Positions 24,556 through 33,791 of a DNA stretch of 51,032 nt are shown here, piece by piece (the stretch's first letter is position 1; each line of letters begins with the position of its first letter). Source of the DNA: a virus. The translations under genes and the position numbers were made by a program. A model generated the notes under the pieces. That model did not search any database and was not told the origin of the DNA. It saw only the letters and a program-made list of their open reading frames with translations. The DNA is taken from positions 1 to 51,032 of IMG/VR virus record IMGVR_UViG_3300037153_000456. One strand, 5' to 3'.

Positions 24556-24625
24556 TTTACTTTCCTTTCCCATTTGTGAGGATTATATTAGGCTACCCCA
24601 AGCCACTAGAAACGGACCCTAGCAG

Positions 24626-25171
24626 ATGGGCTCACCGTTAGATCATCATGTCGTTTATTGGCTGTATGACGCCGGTTGTGTTTCGCCGAAAAAAGACGGC
24701 TATATCGGCGCCTCAAACAATCCGACCAAGCAGGCTTGGCGATATGAGAAGGCTAAAAAATTCGGGGATAAAAAATTTCAGATGAAAATTCTATTTTGGG
24801 GTAGCAAGGAAGAATGTTTGGCAGTCGAACGTCAATTAAGACCGCATCACGGCATTGGGTGGAATAAAGGCGCTGGCGGATTTAAAGATGGCTCTGGTTG
24901 TAAAGGCGTTGCCAAGTCAGCGGAGCACAAAGCTAAAATACGCGCTGCTGCCCTAGCTCGTTATCAAGACCCTGCTGAACACAAGCGCACGTCGAGAGAC
25001 GTAAAACGAGGTCTTGGAAGGAATCATAGCGTCGGCGTTAACAATCCGATGTTCGGTCGCGAGATGTCGGACAAATCCAAGCAAAAAATCCGCGATCGGA
25101 TCGAGCAACGTGGCGGCGTGTTCGGCAAAAACAATCCAAACTACCGCCACGGTCGCTATTCCGACAGTTGA
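24626..25171 (+). CDS. GIY-YIG homing endonuclease with NUMOD3 motifs
   Basis: 181 residues on the plus strand inside the minus-strand tail operon. The N-terminal nuclease domain shows VVYWLYDAG and then DGYIGASNNP, equivalents of the two GIY-YIG strands, followed by EECLAVERQL with the catalytic-type Glu. The C-terminal half has NUMOD3-like DNA-binding repeats: SAEHKAKIRAAALARY, then NNPMFGREMSDKSKQKIRDR and GKNNPNYRHG. Its stop abuts the stop of the gp38-like gene with no gap. It is a free-standing mobile element that probably cut a neighbouring tail locus. The region is somewhat more AT-rich than its flanks, a sign of separate origin. Confidence 0.92.
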   Translation: MGSPLDHHVVYWLYDAGCVSPKKDGYIGASNNPTKQAWRYEKAKKFGDKKFQMKILFWGSKEECLAVERQLRPHHGIGWNKGAGGFKDGSGCKGVAKSAEHKAKIRAAALARYQDPAEHKRTSRDVKRGLGRNHSVGVNNPMFGREMSDKSKQKIRDRIEQRGGVFGKNNPNYRHGRYSDS

Positions 25172-29149: not shown

Positions 29150-30533
29150 GGTTGCCTTTCGTCTCAGGCGCGGGCTCCGGTTTTGGTTTCTCTGTAGAGG
29201 CTGGGGCTGCCGACGGTGCCGGTTTTGCGCCCGGCGATGGCGGTGCCGACGGAATTGCCTCGGCAGCCGACAATGGTACGACCTGCTGCTGCACGCGCGG
29301 CTCGTCGCCGGATTTCACGTTATCGAGACCTTCGGTATTCCGTGCTTCGTTCGGCGAGAACACGCCGCCCTGCACCGCTCGTACCAGCGCCTCGATGCGA
29401 TCTTTGAACTGGGTGCGCAGCAGTGCCGCGGTATCGAATTCGAGGTACTCGTCCGGTTGCCCGTAGAGCCCAAACAAAAGCCCGAAGGCTTCCTCGACGT
29501 GGTTGAGGCAGAAGCCGAGCCCGGACGCCAGCCAGAACTGCATCAGCGCCTCGGTTGAGCCGTACGAGGTGCCGCCGCTTAGACCGAGTACCTGCAGCGG
29601 GATGCGGAACGCCAGCGCGATGTTCTCGTTCGACAGCTTCAGGATGTCAGCGGTCCCGGCATCCTTGCCGCCGAATGACCACGGCTGAACTTTCAACCCG
29701 CTGGTCAAGATCGGCGTACCGCCTTGGTGCAGGTTGCGGGTCTGGTCATTCCAGCGATCGCGCAGCGCCTGCACCTGATCCTTGTCGAGTTGCATCTCGG
29801 TCGACAGCACCGCGCTGGGCCGTGCCTCGTTGCGGTAGAAAGCAGCCTGCTGGGCGGCGATCGCGTTGCCGACCCCGATGTCCGGGTAGGCCGCGCAGAT
29901 CGGCGACTGACCCATGAGCGGCTGCGGGTATTGATAGTTGGTATGCAGGCGGATGTGCAGGACATCGCGCTGCGGCACCACGACTGGATATTCGTAATTG
30001 TGGTAGCGCAGCCGGTTCTCGATGACGTCATTGCCGCGCAGGTAATAAAAAATGTCGCCGTTCTCCGCCACCCGCGGGTACGACTCGTTGCTGTTCATCA
30101 GATGCAGTTCGTCGATCTCGTAGCGCGAATTACGCAGCGCCAGCGCGTAGGCATTGCCTTCCAGATAGAGCCAGCGCACCGCGTTGAGCAGGAAGTCGCT
30201 GATCGACTGGTAGGAATTTGGATGGCGCAGGATGCGCGAGAGCGACGAGGTCTCGACACGATCGCGCCCGCCCTTGTCGTTCTTGAGCCAGTGATCGCCC
30301 GGGCACATGGCGACCGTCTGTGCGTAAGCCGATACGCACGCCTCGACCATGGCCGATGACGAGCCGCTGTAAATCGGATCGTAGCCGTTCTGCCACCAAT
30401 TCCAGCTATCGCCGACATTGGCAGCCAGCCAGCCGCCAGTGATCGGCAGATGCCATGGACCCGGACGCACATCTCCCTCGCCCTTGCGGACGAGGGAGAC
30501 CATGCGTTGCATCAAACCGCTGACAACGCTCAT
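29073..30533 (-). CDS. Portal protein, HK97 type
   Basis: 486 residues. Family features: DPIYSGSSSAMVEACVSAYA, then PNSYQSISDFLLNAVRWLYL and EGNAYALALRN, RDVLHIRLHTNYQYPQPLMG, and LGLSGGTSYGSTEALMQFWL. It forms the dodecameric DNA entry ring. A Pro/Ala-rich tail covers the last 80 residues. It is placed after the capsid gene, the reverse of the usual HK97 order. Start overlaps the small upstream gene by ATGA. Confidence 0.93.
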   Translation of the reverse strand: MSVVSGLMQRMVSLVRKGEGDVRPGPWHLPITGGWLAANVGDSWNWWQNGYDPIYSGSSSAMVEACVSAYAQTVAMCPGDHWLKNDKGGRDRVETSSLSRILRHPNSYQSISDFLLNAVRWLYLEGNAYALALRNSRYEIDELHLMNSNESYPRVAENGDIFYYLRGNDVIENRLRYHNYEYPVVVPQRDVLHIRLHTNYQYPQPLMGQSPICAAYPDIGVGNAIAAQQAAFYRNEARPSAVLSTEMQLDKDQVQALRDRWNDQTRNLHQGGTPILTSGLKVQPWSFGGKDAGTADILKLSNENIALAFRIPLQVLGLSGGTSYGSTEALMQFWLASGLGFCLNHVEEAFGLLFGLYGQPDEYLEFDTAALLRTQFKDRIEALVRAVQGGVFSPNEARNTEGLDNVKSGDEPRVQQQVVPLSAAEAIPSAPPSPGAKPAPSAAPASTEKPKPEPAPETKGNRDDIKREVRNLLTSAARIKQRRLSA

Positions 30534-30811
30534 TCGCTGCGTTGGCCAGCACGATGCGGGGTAGCAGCCCGAGTCTGATAAGCGCCCGGTTTGCCTGCTT
30601 CGACATTGCGTGTGCTGAGGTTATGCGGATCGGGCCCGCTACCGTCAGCTTCCAATTCAGGATGACCGCCAAGAATGGCGATGTCATTTTCTTCCTGCGT
30701 TGGTGTCGGCTTGCCTTTCGTCACTTCCGCGCGTTGCTTGTCCTGCTCCGCGCGAAGCTCCTTTCCTTGCGCCAGACCCTTCTTGGCGGCTTCGGTTGCT
30801 GTATCTGCCAT
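30530..30811 (-). CDS. Small hypothetical virion-type protein with PTQEEND motif
   Basis: 93 residues. A GAGGAGGG ribosome site lies six bases before the ATG. An N-terminal charged helix is followed by PTPTQEENDIAILGG. Nearly the same motif occurs in the IPT-domain protein at 34403-34816 (TPTQEENDLAKLG), which suggests a shared docking tag. The last 128 bases of the HNH endonuclease frame overlap this gene. The product probably belongs to the particle; no function is known. Confidence 0.68.
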   Translation of the reverse strand: MADTATEAAKKGLAQGKELRAEQDKQRAEVTKGKPTPTQEENDIAILGGHPELEADGSGPDPHNLSTRNVEAGKPGAYQTRAATPHRAGQRSE

Positions 30812-31487
30812 TTTTGACCCTCCTCTTTGGAAAATTGAGGCGATAGTGCGGATAGCGCCTAGCTATTGCATCATAAGCACGCGCCGCATCTATCTCGTGA
30901 TTGAACAAGCCGAGATCGCGCACTTTCCCGTTAATCGCAATTCGCGCTCGCCATTTTTGATTGTTCCAAAAATCGACGCCGCGATATTTACTCGATGCAT
31001 CCCGTTTTTTGCGCCGATTTTTCTGTTGAGCAACACTGTCAGCAGTCCACCGGACATTACCCGGTCGATAATTTCCGTTCGGATTAATGCGATCAAGTTC
31101 ATGGCGCGAACTCGGTCGCTCGCCCATGTCCGCTAGAAACTTTTCAAACTTTTGCCATCGGCGGCAGACCTTGATGCCGCGGCCACCGTAATCTGCATAT
31201 GACTTGCAATTTGGATTTGTGCATCGCTTCCGCATGTCGGCCCAGATTCTATAAATATTGTCTTTAGAGCGGCCATGCGTGCGCATTAAGTCTCCTAATT
31301 GATTACGTTGCAAACAGCCGCACGATTTCGCGTGACCGGTCGTCAAAGCAATCAATTTCTTTACACAAATGTTCCCGCAAGCGCATCGAACTCTAAAAGC
31401 ACGACGATCACCAATATGTCCGGCTGGACCAATGATGGTCAATCGACTGAACCGCATTCCTTTCTTGATTTCCAGTGCATTTGGCAT
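30684..31487 (-). CDS. HNH homing endonuclease with AP2 DNA-binding domain
   Basis: 267 residues. The N-terminal 55 residues contain four cysteines and a basic patch (RVRCACGNICVKKLIAL, KSCGCLQRN). Next is the HNH nuclease: YRIWADMRKRCTNPNCKSYA, YGGRGIKVCRRWQKFEKFL and RHELDRINPNGNYRPGNVRW. An AP2 domain follows (SSKYRGVDFWNNQKWRARIA, then DAARAYDAIARRYP). The AP2 domain ends at LNFP, right at the ribosome site of the next gene, and the remaining 40 or so residues are the next gene read out of frame. This is a free-standing homing gene between capsid and portal genes. A hairpin covers its ribosome site. Confidence 0.9.
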   Translation of the reverse strand: MPNALEIKKGMRFSRLTIIGPAGHIGDRRAFRVRCACGNICVKKLIALTTGHAKSCGCLQRNQLGDLMRTHGRSKDNIYRIWADMRKRCTNPNCKSYADYGGRGIKVCRRWQKFEKFLADMGERPSSRHELDRINPNGNYRPGNVRWTADSVAQQKNRRKKRDASSKYRGVDFWNNQKWRARIAINGKVRDLGLFNHEIDAARAYDAIARRYPHYRLNFPKRRVKNGRYSNRSRQEGSGARKGASRGAGQATRGSDERQADTNAGRK

Positions 31488-31490
31488 TGA

Positions 31491-31519
31491 GTACCCTCCG
31501 TAATTATAACGGAGGGTAC
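31491..31519 (-). promoter_or_regulatory. Hairpin hiding the ribosome site of the HNH endonuclease
   Basis: GTACCCTCCGT and ACGGAGGGTAC form a perfect 11-bp stem around a 7-base loop. On the minus strand the 3' arm contains the GGAGGG ribosome site, seven bases before the ATG at 31487. The loop contains a consensus TATAAT on the minus strand. A transcript reading through from the capsid gene would fold and hide the site; one starting from the loop hexamer would lack the 5' arm. Confidence 0.72.
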
Positions 31520-31550
31520 CATTTCTACCAGTAAGTAAACATAACTTCGG

Positions 31551-33791
31551 CTACCACGTCACACCAACCACCGCGCTAACCACCCCCGGCCTTCTGATCG
31601 CCCAGTTGGTCGGCATGATGAGGCGGAGCGCGATCGAGTCGGTCTGCCACATCGATTTGACCGGATTGGCCGTCGTCGGCGTGCCACCGCCGCTGACGAT
31701 GTCTGCCGGAGCGGTGTCCTCCATGTGCAGCGTCGCCTGATCGCTGAGTTCGAAGCGCGGAGCCTCGCCGCCCACGCTGACGAAGTCTGCCGCGTCCATC
31801 GCGATCACCGTGCCGAGCGGGACCGTGCCAGAGTCAATGATCGGCCACCCTTGCAGGTTGCCGTTGTTGATCTGGTCTTGGAACGGGAACGCCCCGACAC
31901 CCGGCGCCGGAGTGAGACCCGCCGACATGACCTGTTGCGGGTTCATGATCCAGACCGGTGCGCGCACGTTGCCCTTGGTCGCGGTGAGCAGCGCGCCGCT
32001 GATCTGCTTGATGTCGCCCACCAATGCCGTAAATCCGCCGCCCGCGGTCGCGGTGAGCGGTGTCACACCATTGAGGATGCCAGCCGGACGGATGAGCGTC
32101 GCCGCATTGGCGTCGAGCAACACGGTGTCAAGCGAGACCGCCGTGTCTTCTTGGATTGCGGCCCGCAGCAAGCCCTCGATCGCGGGCACGCTGGCCTCAT
32201 CGATTTCGCGGGTCCACGTGGTGATGACCGCCATCTTCTTGGGCGTCAGGACTTGTGCCGTGAAAGCACCCTGACGGACAGGAATCGGCTGCCCTTCACC
32301 AACGAACGATCCGGCGATCGACGGCGTCAGTGCCCGGGTCGGGACGCTGATCCGGCCATTGCGACCGAAGGTCAACGACAGACCCTTGGCCGACAGGCGC
32401 GGGAACACCGACTTCGGCATCAGTGTCGACATGAAGGACGCGAACAGGGTCTGCACCAGTTCCTGCGCCCAGCCGGTGACCGTGGTCATGGCCGGAGCGC
32501 TCGCCGCCTTCATGGTCCATTCGAGCATGGCCCGGGTTGGCTCATCGTCCGGGTACACCATCTTGCGGATTTCCTCGATCGGTTTCCGCTGCTGGTGCGC
32601 CACCATCATGATCGCGCCGGAGCGGGCCAACAGGTCGATGATGTTGACCTCTTTCCGGGCGCCCTTGAGGTTGAACGGACGCGAGCCGCCGTTCGGCCTG
32701 ATCTCGGCGCGCTGGCTATGCACGACGAGGCCACGCCCCTTGCCGCCATCGTCTTCGCTGGATTCGGCGAGGTGCCGCTCTGCTTCCTGCAGCGCGGTGA
32801 GCCCCTTCTCTTCCTGCGCGATCTTGGCGTTCAGTTCCTGCGTCACCTCAAGCTGCTCGTCGGTGACATTTGAATCATCGACGTCTTCAAGGTGCGCCTT
32901 CAGTTGGTCACGCAGAGCCACCAGACGGGTCTGCGCTTCCGTTACGCGTTGAGCGAGCGACATAGCCGCCCCTCCTTTTCTGATTGTCAGTTTTCCGGCT
33001 TGCCCGCCGATGAGCCCGCGTTTCACGGTCAGGCCTGTTGCGCCTTGCCCGGCGAAGACCAGATCGATTGTTGCGGGAGAAACCCCGAGTGATTTTGCAA
33101 TCGCCAGCGCATTCGGGTTCGCTGGCACGGCGACGAGGCTGGTCTCCACCAATTCACTCTTGGTGAAAATGCTGCCGCCAATTCCGAATTGATCATCCTC
33201 TTTGCGCGATTGCCGCTTGACCGGTCGGAAACCAACGCTGACCGCCTTGAGGATGTCGGCCTCGATCAGCTTGCGGATTTCATCGATGCGCGGGGATGTG
33301 CCAGCGGGTGCGAGCACAAGGTTGCCGCGCAACTGCTTGTTCTGCTTGTCGACGCGCAGATCGGACCATTTGCCGATCACAAAATTTGGATTGTGATTGA
33401 ACAGCGCGATCGGATTTTTCTTGAAGTTCTCAAGGTCCCAGCCGTCCGACCGGATGATGTCGTCCATGCGGTCCGGCGTCTCGTCGGACAGCACGAACTG
33501 CATGCCGTTGACGGTCTCGGCGTGCGTCTTGTGCAGGACGGCATCACCGCCGCGGTTCTCCGACCAGATCACCCGGCATTCATCGGAATCCAGTTCCTCT
33601 TCGCAGCGATCCATGAAGTCTTCAAAGGATTCGCCATCGTCCGGTTCGACCTGCTTCTCGCGGCTGCGCCACATGCTCATGCAGGCGGCCACGGCCTGAT
33701 CCTGCTCGCGCTTGCCGTCGCCCATCATTTCGGACACGCAGCGGTGCATCCAATCTGACTGACTTTCATCTTTGTTCGGTTTGATAGGCAT
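31551..33791 (-). CDS. Prohead protease fused to HK97-type major capsid protein
   Basis: 746 residues. Residues 90-235 form an HK97 prohead protease domain: ALFNHNPNFVIGKWSDL gives the catalytic His133, and ELVETSLVAVPANPNALAIA gives Ser218. A coiled-coil delta-like scaffold spans about 277-345. From about 370 onward the HK97 fold capsid appears, with MTTVTGWAQELVQTLFASFM, FVGEGQPIPVRQGAFTAQVL and the C-terminal SMWQTDSIALRLIMPTNWAI. Fused protease-capsid ORFs are known in some phages. An internal ATG at 32963 (residue 277) has a strong AAGGAGG site, so the free capsid is probably also made. The N-terminal 85 residues have several Cys and acidic residues of unknown role. Confidence 0.92.
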   Translation of the reverse strand: MPIKPNKDESQSDWMHRCVSEMMGDGKREQDQAVAACMSMWRSREKQVEPDDGESFEDFMDRCEEELDSDECRVIWSENRGGDAVLHKTHAETVNGMQFVLSDETPDRMDDIIRSDGWDLENFKKNPIALFNHNPNFVIGKWSDLRVDKQNKQLRGNLVLAPAGTSPRIDEIRKLIEADILKAVSVGFRPVKRQSRKEDDQFGIGGSIFTKSELVETSLVAVPANPNALAIAKSLGVSPATIDLVFAGQGATGLTVKRGLIGGQAGKLTIRKGGAAMSLAQRVTEAQTRLVALRDQLKAHLEDVDDSNVTDEQLEVTQELNAKIAQEEKGLTALQEAERHLAESSEDDGGKGRGLVVHSQRAEIRPNGGSRPFNLKGARKEVNIIDLLARSGAIMMVAHQQRKPIEEIRKMVYPDDEPTRAMLEWTMKAASAPAMTTVTGWAQELVQTLFASFMSTLMPKSVFPRLSAKGLSLTFGRNGRISVPTRALTPSIAGSFVGEGQPIPVRQGAFTAQVLTPKKMAVITTWTREIDEASVPAIEGLLRAAIQEDTAVSLDTVLLDANAATLIRPAGILNGVTPLTATAGGGFTALVGDIKQISGALLTATKGNVRAPVWIMNPQQVMSAGLTPAPGVGAFPFQDQINNGNLQGWPIIDSGTVPLGTVIAMDAADFVSVGGEAPRFELSDQATLHMEDTAPADIVSGGGTPTTANPVKSMWQTDSIALRLIMPTNWAIRRPGVVSAVVGVTW
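32961..32977 (-). promoter_or_regulatory. Internal ribosome site and start within the protease-capsid ORF
   Basis: Minus-strand AAGGAGG at 32977-32971 lies seven bases before an in-frame ATG at 32963 (MSLAQRVTEAQ). This is exactly where the scaffold/capsid part begins, so a 470-residue capsid precursor can be started independently. Confidence 0.75.

Follow-up and report, generated by a model that had tools for sequence, protein, structure and literature searches.

The window analysed here, which comprises an entire IMG/VR virus record (51,032 bases), has a homing-endonuclease gene directly behind the gene for its major capsid protein. This raises the question of how a selfish gene with a toxic product can persist next to the gene that a phage expresses most. 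A testable answer may lie in an RNA hairpin that covers the ribosome site of the endonuclease gene. The prohead protease / major capsid fusion gene (31551..33791, minus strand; PF04586 and PF05065; phrog_617 major head protein) is immediately upstream, and 63 nt separate its stop codon from the ATG of the endonuclease gene. The latter occupies 30684..31487 on the minus strand (ATG 31485-31487) and matches the phrog_374 HNH endonuclease family with an E value of 1e-60. Its C-terminal AP2 DNA-binding domain (30852..31013, minus strand; residues about 159-212) was recognised with a profile of the window protein and three sister genes, which matched PDB AP2/ERF chains (7wq5, E 2.5e-13, profile positions 159-212). 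Pfam returned no match for the window protein, and the AP2 domain of four sister genes fell below the Pfam cut-off. From its domains, the gene is classed with the AP2-associated HNH homing endonucleases (IPA-HNH) of the phage ICP1 kind, which likewise have an N-terminal HNH and a C-terminal AP2 domain and in many cases lie close to essential genes (PMC10448857).

A hairpin over the ribosome site

The computed hairpin is located at 31491..31519 on the minus strand and is preceded by the 31-nt leader (31520..31550) that follows the capsid stop codon. From 31519 to 31491 it reads GTACCCTCCGT-TATAATT-ACGGAGGGTAC; the 5' arm (31519-31509) and the 3' arm (31501-31491) form 11 of 11 perfect pairs around a 7-nt loop (31508-31502). 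The Shine-Dalgarno (SD) sequence of the HNH gene, GGAGGG (31494..31499, minus strand), is within the 3' arm, 6 nt from the ATG (31487). RNA folding of the hairpin alone gives -19.6 kcal/mol with a z of -6.2, which none of 200 shuffles equalled, and the hairpin is also the dominant structure within contexts of 63, 103 and 141 nt. The calculated cost of opening the SD is 20.7 kcal/mol, so that both folding and opening cost place the SD in a stable stem. The first-pass annotation, made from the letters, had described an 11-bp perfect stem over GGAGGG and a TATAAT on the coding strand of the loop; both are confirmed, the latter at 31503..31508 (minus strand). The exact palindrome occurs once in the virus record and has no exact DNA match in IMG/VR.

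Further copies at the same junction were found with a profile of the window gene and three sister genes. Full-length copies are present in the loci L308 (=L309, L310), L311, L312 and L318 (=L319, L264), in which the HNH proteins are 46-52% and the capsid proteins 35-62% identical to those of the window. A strong hairpin covers the SD in five of five full-length HNH genes, the window included. The leaders of the window, L308, L311 and L318 can be aligned, and all 47 of the 47 scored pair cells hold standard pairs. Four pairs have compensatory changes on both sides, and in L311 one pair is gone from both arms together; the structure is kept in relatives through compensatory change. When the partner columns were slid as a control, pairing fell to 30-59%. 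The covariation score was reached by 7 of 500 shuffles, a count that with four sequences is modest when taken alone. The recurrence of the predicted hairpin across all five copies, more than the covariation count, makes its conservation convincing. GC-rich phage genomes often contain isolated hairpins, and the structure could be a chance palindrome without function; however, the folding z, the covariation and the presence at the site in all five copies make this extremely unlikely.

The hairpin of L312 has a sequence unrelated to that of the window, and its predicted stem extends into the start codon. The capsid frame of this locus is apparently shifted near its end (L312:2421-2447), with the usual ..VTW* ending in another frame.

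An N-terminally shortened HNH/AP2 gene is found at the window's site in L244, L245 and L313-L317. These truncated genes are outside the 11 capsid-linked cases discussed below, as their short N-termini kept them from automatic start finding. The ATG of L244 and L245 follows the capsid stop by 8 nt, and their HELDRI motif is changed to HELTRI. Together with the hairpin, the lineage has lost its N-terminal domain and some of the conserved residues near the HNH motif. Since these truncated capsid-linked genes have no hairpin, the rule proposed below is stated for full-length genes only. Hairpin loss alongside an apparently decaying nuclease would be expected if an active nuclease needs a throttle, but a single lineage proves little.

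Insertion site and nuclease cassette

The small gene (30530..30811, minus strand) lies directly behind the capsid gene in HNH-less relatives and marks the empty site. Its SD, GAGGAGGG (30818..30825, minus strand), lies within the 3'-terminal part of the HNH gene (compare L264 and L244). The DNA alignment with L004 ends at the capsid stop codon (31551) and restarts at 30814, just ahead of the small-gene start; this locus and 93 HNH-less capsid/next-gene junctions set the insertion against an empty site. Among 15 annotated regions, no named isolate with a capsid-linked HNH gene of the window family was recognised. AP2-tail remnants (..LNFP..) precede the small-gene ribosome site in L056, L018, L019, L265, L271 and L301 and look like scars of lost HNH/AP2 genes. 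Their presence at the junction in several relatives suggests that the site has been occupied repeatedly or anciently. In the window, the HNH frame lacks the stop that its relatives have after the conserved LNFP and continues for about 45 codons (30684-30811), overlapping the small-gene start in another frame.

A covariance model was built from the window, L308, L318 and L349, and L311 was left out. L349 is from another phage, in which the HNH gene is behind a head structural gene, and its leader is clearly related to that of the window. The model scores the window, itself one of the four model sequences, at 48 bits (E 5.5e-11) and recovers the left-out L311 at E 2e-4. Against about 500 kb from 76 other capsid loci with this junction, almost all of them HNH-less (L245 has a truncated HNH gene), it gives no match, and it gives none in 88 other HNH loci. 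Since the model finds L311 and no HNH-less capsid locus, the computed linkage is to the HNH gene and not to the capsid gene, which makes the hairpin part of the HNH cassette. Inheritance of the hairpin from the capsid gene is rejected on the same ground, although other hairpins occur in the HNH-less capsid loci.

Those other hairpins bear on a second explanation, in which the structure mainly serves the capsid mRNA through 3'-end protection, RNase processing or partial termination, and the SD is covered incidentally as a result of compact spacing. A strong hairpin follows the capsid stop in 66 of 93 HNH-less relatives, which makes a role in the capsid mRNA possible and is counted against a throttle on the nuclease, and the HNH-bearing versions have no separate hairpin. 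However, at a stem score of at least 20 the next ribosome site is inside the stem in 0 of the 93 relatives, compared with the SD in the stem in all five full-length HNH genes. Above background, the leader model matches HNH-bearing loci only. The window stem is not followed by a U-run and is not among the hits of the terminator scan; an intrinsic terminator was rejected for the same reasons. A main role in the capsid mRNA is therefore unlikely. The hairpins of the relatives (L003-L060, L229-L307) have very different sequences, some with U-runs (L287, L230), and are separate from the next ribosome site.

Capsid neighbours and a probable limit on translation

The calculated cost of freeing the ribosome site was used as the measure for all collected HNH genes, and a cost of at least 12 kcal/mol was taken as strong occlusion. 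When a major head gene is directly upstream, 11 of 11 HNH genes reach this value (median 17.0; window 20.7). When another classified gene is upstream, 6 of 52 do so (median 5.6), and no major head family is found upstream of these 52 comparison genes. The capsid-linked genes belong to three capsid families: the window type, phrog_9953 (L348, L346, L342, L441, L448) and a P22-type coat (L367). The start codon of L342 was corrected by hand. The P values for this computed enrichment (Fisher 2e-8; Mann-Whitney 4e-7; GC-corrected 3e-7; Mann-Whitney 7e-6 for intergenic gaps of at least 20 nt only) overstate independence and are descriptive only, since the 11 cases represent about three capsid lineages and the HNHs share ancestry. 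The rule was first seen in part of the data, after which the set was enlarged and 50 more upstream genes were classified; the rule is therefore in part post hoc. Two of the added genes, L441 and L448, are capsid-linked, and both fit it. In HNH-less relatives, the small gene that follows this capsid gene reaches at least 12 kcal/mol in 0 of 93 cases.

When all HNH genes were pooled and compared with their neighbours, 8 of 146 versus 3 of 293 had a hairpin at a stem score of at least 20. The hairpin as a trait of all HNH genes is rejected, since this enrichment is weak and the signal comes mostly from the capsid-linked genes. The HNH gene of L121 is behind an exonuclease VIII gene and has a 12-bp SD hairpin with CATAAT in the loop (L121:1430-1474), an exception to the capsid rule.

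The explanation that we favour, with a probability of about 0.8, is a mobile HNH/AP2 cassette behind the capsid gene that has its own 5' leader hairpin, which would limit nuclease translation on read-through mRNA. The HNH/AP2 gene would have inserted between the major capsid gene and the small gene and would have brought its own 5' leader, folded over the ribosome site. The HNH gene would be reached by transcripts that read through from the capsid gene, and nuclease translation on this presumably abundant mRNA would be held low by the hairpin. A toxic, non-essential nuclease would thus not be produced at capsid-like levels, and the benefit would be a limit on dosage. The first-pass annotation had already suggested that the hairpin hides the endonuclease ribosome site on capsid read-through transcripts, and this is supported by strong comparative evidence (5/5 copies; 47/47 pair cells; 0/93 HNH-less relatives; 11/11 versus 6/52 HNH genes). 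Judged from sequence, translational throttling of the HNH gene is well supported, and the hairpin probably acts as a built-in volume control that lowers translation. Two further points count against the throttle. The 6 of 52 HNH genes behind non-capsid genes, such as that of L121, are also occluded, and a stem of about -20 kcal/mol or more leaves the synthesis of the nuclease unaccounted for.

The loop motif and known systems

The TATAAT in the loop was read in the first-pass annotation as the -10 box of an internal promoter, with the caution that the -35 region is weak and the start close to the ribosome site. The best -35 partner of the motif, CTGGTA with a 17-nt spacer, matches the consensus at 3 of 6 positions, and a start 6-8 nt downstream would fall inside GGAGGG. 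The loop site fails a standard promoter scan, and the best site in this leader is equalled by 7% of shuffled leaders. TATAAT is absent from the nine other loops of the family (L308, L311, L312, L318, L367, L348, L346, L441, L349), and it occurs 5 times in the window compared with 3.6 expected. By our estimate, the chance of TATAAT in an AT-only 7-nt loop is about 3% (two placements, each one half to the sixth power), and the motif is probably a chance feature of such a loop. A conserved loop promoter is rejected given the other loops, the weak -35 and a start that would cut the SD. We infer that the gene has no dedicated promoter that yields a transcript without the 5' arm.

A more specific version of the promoter idea is a timing switch like that of I-TevI, in which the loop -10 yields a short hairpin-free transcript and the nuclease is translated only while the promoter is active. 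The loop TATAAT is a consensus match, and the design is convincingly realised in the relatives L127 (1440-1510) and L131 (1420-1490), whose HNH genes are behind a phrog_3287 head structural gene. Their near-consensus promoters (TTGACT-18-TATAAT in L127 and TTTACA-17-TATAAT in L131; 11/12 consensus; 0/200 shuffles score equal) are just 5' of short, weaker SD hairpins, and their predicted start would fall in the 5' arm, which the transcript would then lose. These two loci, rather than the window, look like the T4 arrangement. For the window itself, the -35 region, the 7% of shuffles, the position of the start and the nine loops that have no TATAAT make the switch very unlikely. The HNH gene is also already within the capsid operon. 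Since this is a late operon, a standing limit on the level of expression is more likely than temporal gating of the T4 td kind.

Two reviews (PMC2988022, PMC3014915) describe hairpins that sequester the ribosome site, combined with middle or late promoters, for I-TevI, I-TevII, I-TevIII, segB and mobE. They call hairpin control experimentally established for mobE of Aeromonas phage Aeh1, a free-standing HNH gene, and likewise for T4 I-TevI. According to the same reviews (PMC2988022, PMC3014915), mobE and T4 segB are, like the window gene, free-standing homing endonucleases among essential phage genes with a hairpin-sequestered ribosome site. However, mobE and segB are from T4-like phages, with the nrd operon and a late promoter, whereas the window has a capsid operon and no conserved promoter; the neighbouring gene and the hairpin sequence are unrelated. 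I-TevI, I-TevII and I-TevIII of T4 also have an SD about 8 nt before the AUG in a stable hairpin on read-through transcripts, but they are intron-encoded, and their middle or late promoters lie within the hairpin or next to it. The I-TevI hairpin, unlike that of the window, also protects intron splicing. Translation of T4 e, soc, 25 and others from long transcripts is likewise affected by RNA structure that covers the ribosome site, although these are ordinary phage genes and not mobile nucleases.

The parallel to T4 I-TevI drawn in the first-pass annotation thus holds for an SD-hiding hairpin on read-through transcripts and fails for the internal promoter, which is not conserved and has a -35 of 3/6. 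The phages are indeed unrelated to T4, as had been stated, but the claim of an unrelated nuclease family was partly wrong, as mobE and I-TevIII are HNH nucleases with the same control (PMC2988022). By analogy, the window would work like mobE in its hairpin and departs from it in the promoter. Since the mechanism is known from T4 I-TevI and Aeh1 mobE, the window is a variant and not a new principle. What is new is the capsid rule, the occurrence in non-T4 phages and the absence of a conserved promoter inside the hairpin. No description of hairpin control of capsid-linked HNH genes was found in the open-access literature, and the IPA-HNH study does not mention a hairpin or promoter, so that a capsid-linked leader hairpin is undescribed there (PMC10448857).

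I-TevI is also its own regulator, acting at an operator similar to its homing site (PMC2988022), and the window hairpin could similarly be a regulated operator, bound by the nuclease through its AP2 domain or by another phage or host protein or ligand that alters access to the ribosome site. The window loop (TATAATT) resembles that of L318 (TGTAGTT). However, the other loops vary in length and sequence, and no Rfam family matches. The similarity between the leader and the capsid 3' end is at shuffle level (P 0.11-0.62), and an I-TevI-like operator of that form is rejected. A regulated operator is therefore quite improbable, and a fixed limit on nuclease translation is preferred.

Hairpin control of homing endonucleases, known from T4-like phages, thus seems to extend to unrelated phages, where the hairpin travels with the nuclease gene and its presence follows that of a capsid neighbour in three capsid families. 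We lean slightly towards a general rule by which homing endonucleases directly behind major capsid genes could persist in this most strongly expressed region of the genome only with a cassette-borne hairpin, already present or newly evolved, that holds down their translation; L127 and L131 would add an I-TevI-like bypass through a strong promoter at the hairpin edge. A hairpin behind a capsid gene may serve as a sequence rule for spotting such nuclease genes. The window also has a second putative homing endonuclease (NUMOD3; phrog_314) at 24626-25171 on the plus strand, opposite to its neighbours, and a TATAAT at 24582-24587 on the minus strand adjoins this gene.
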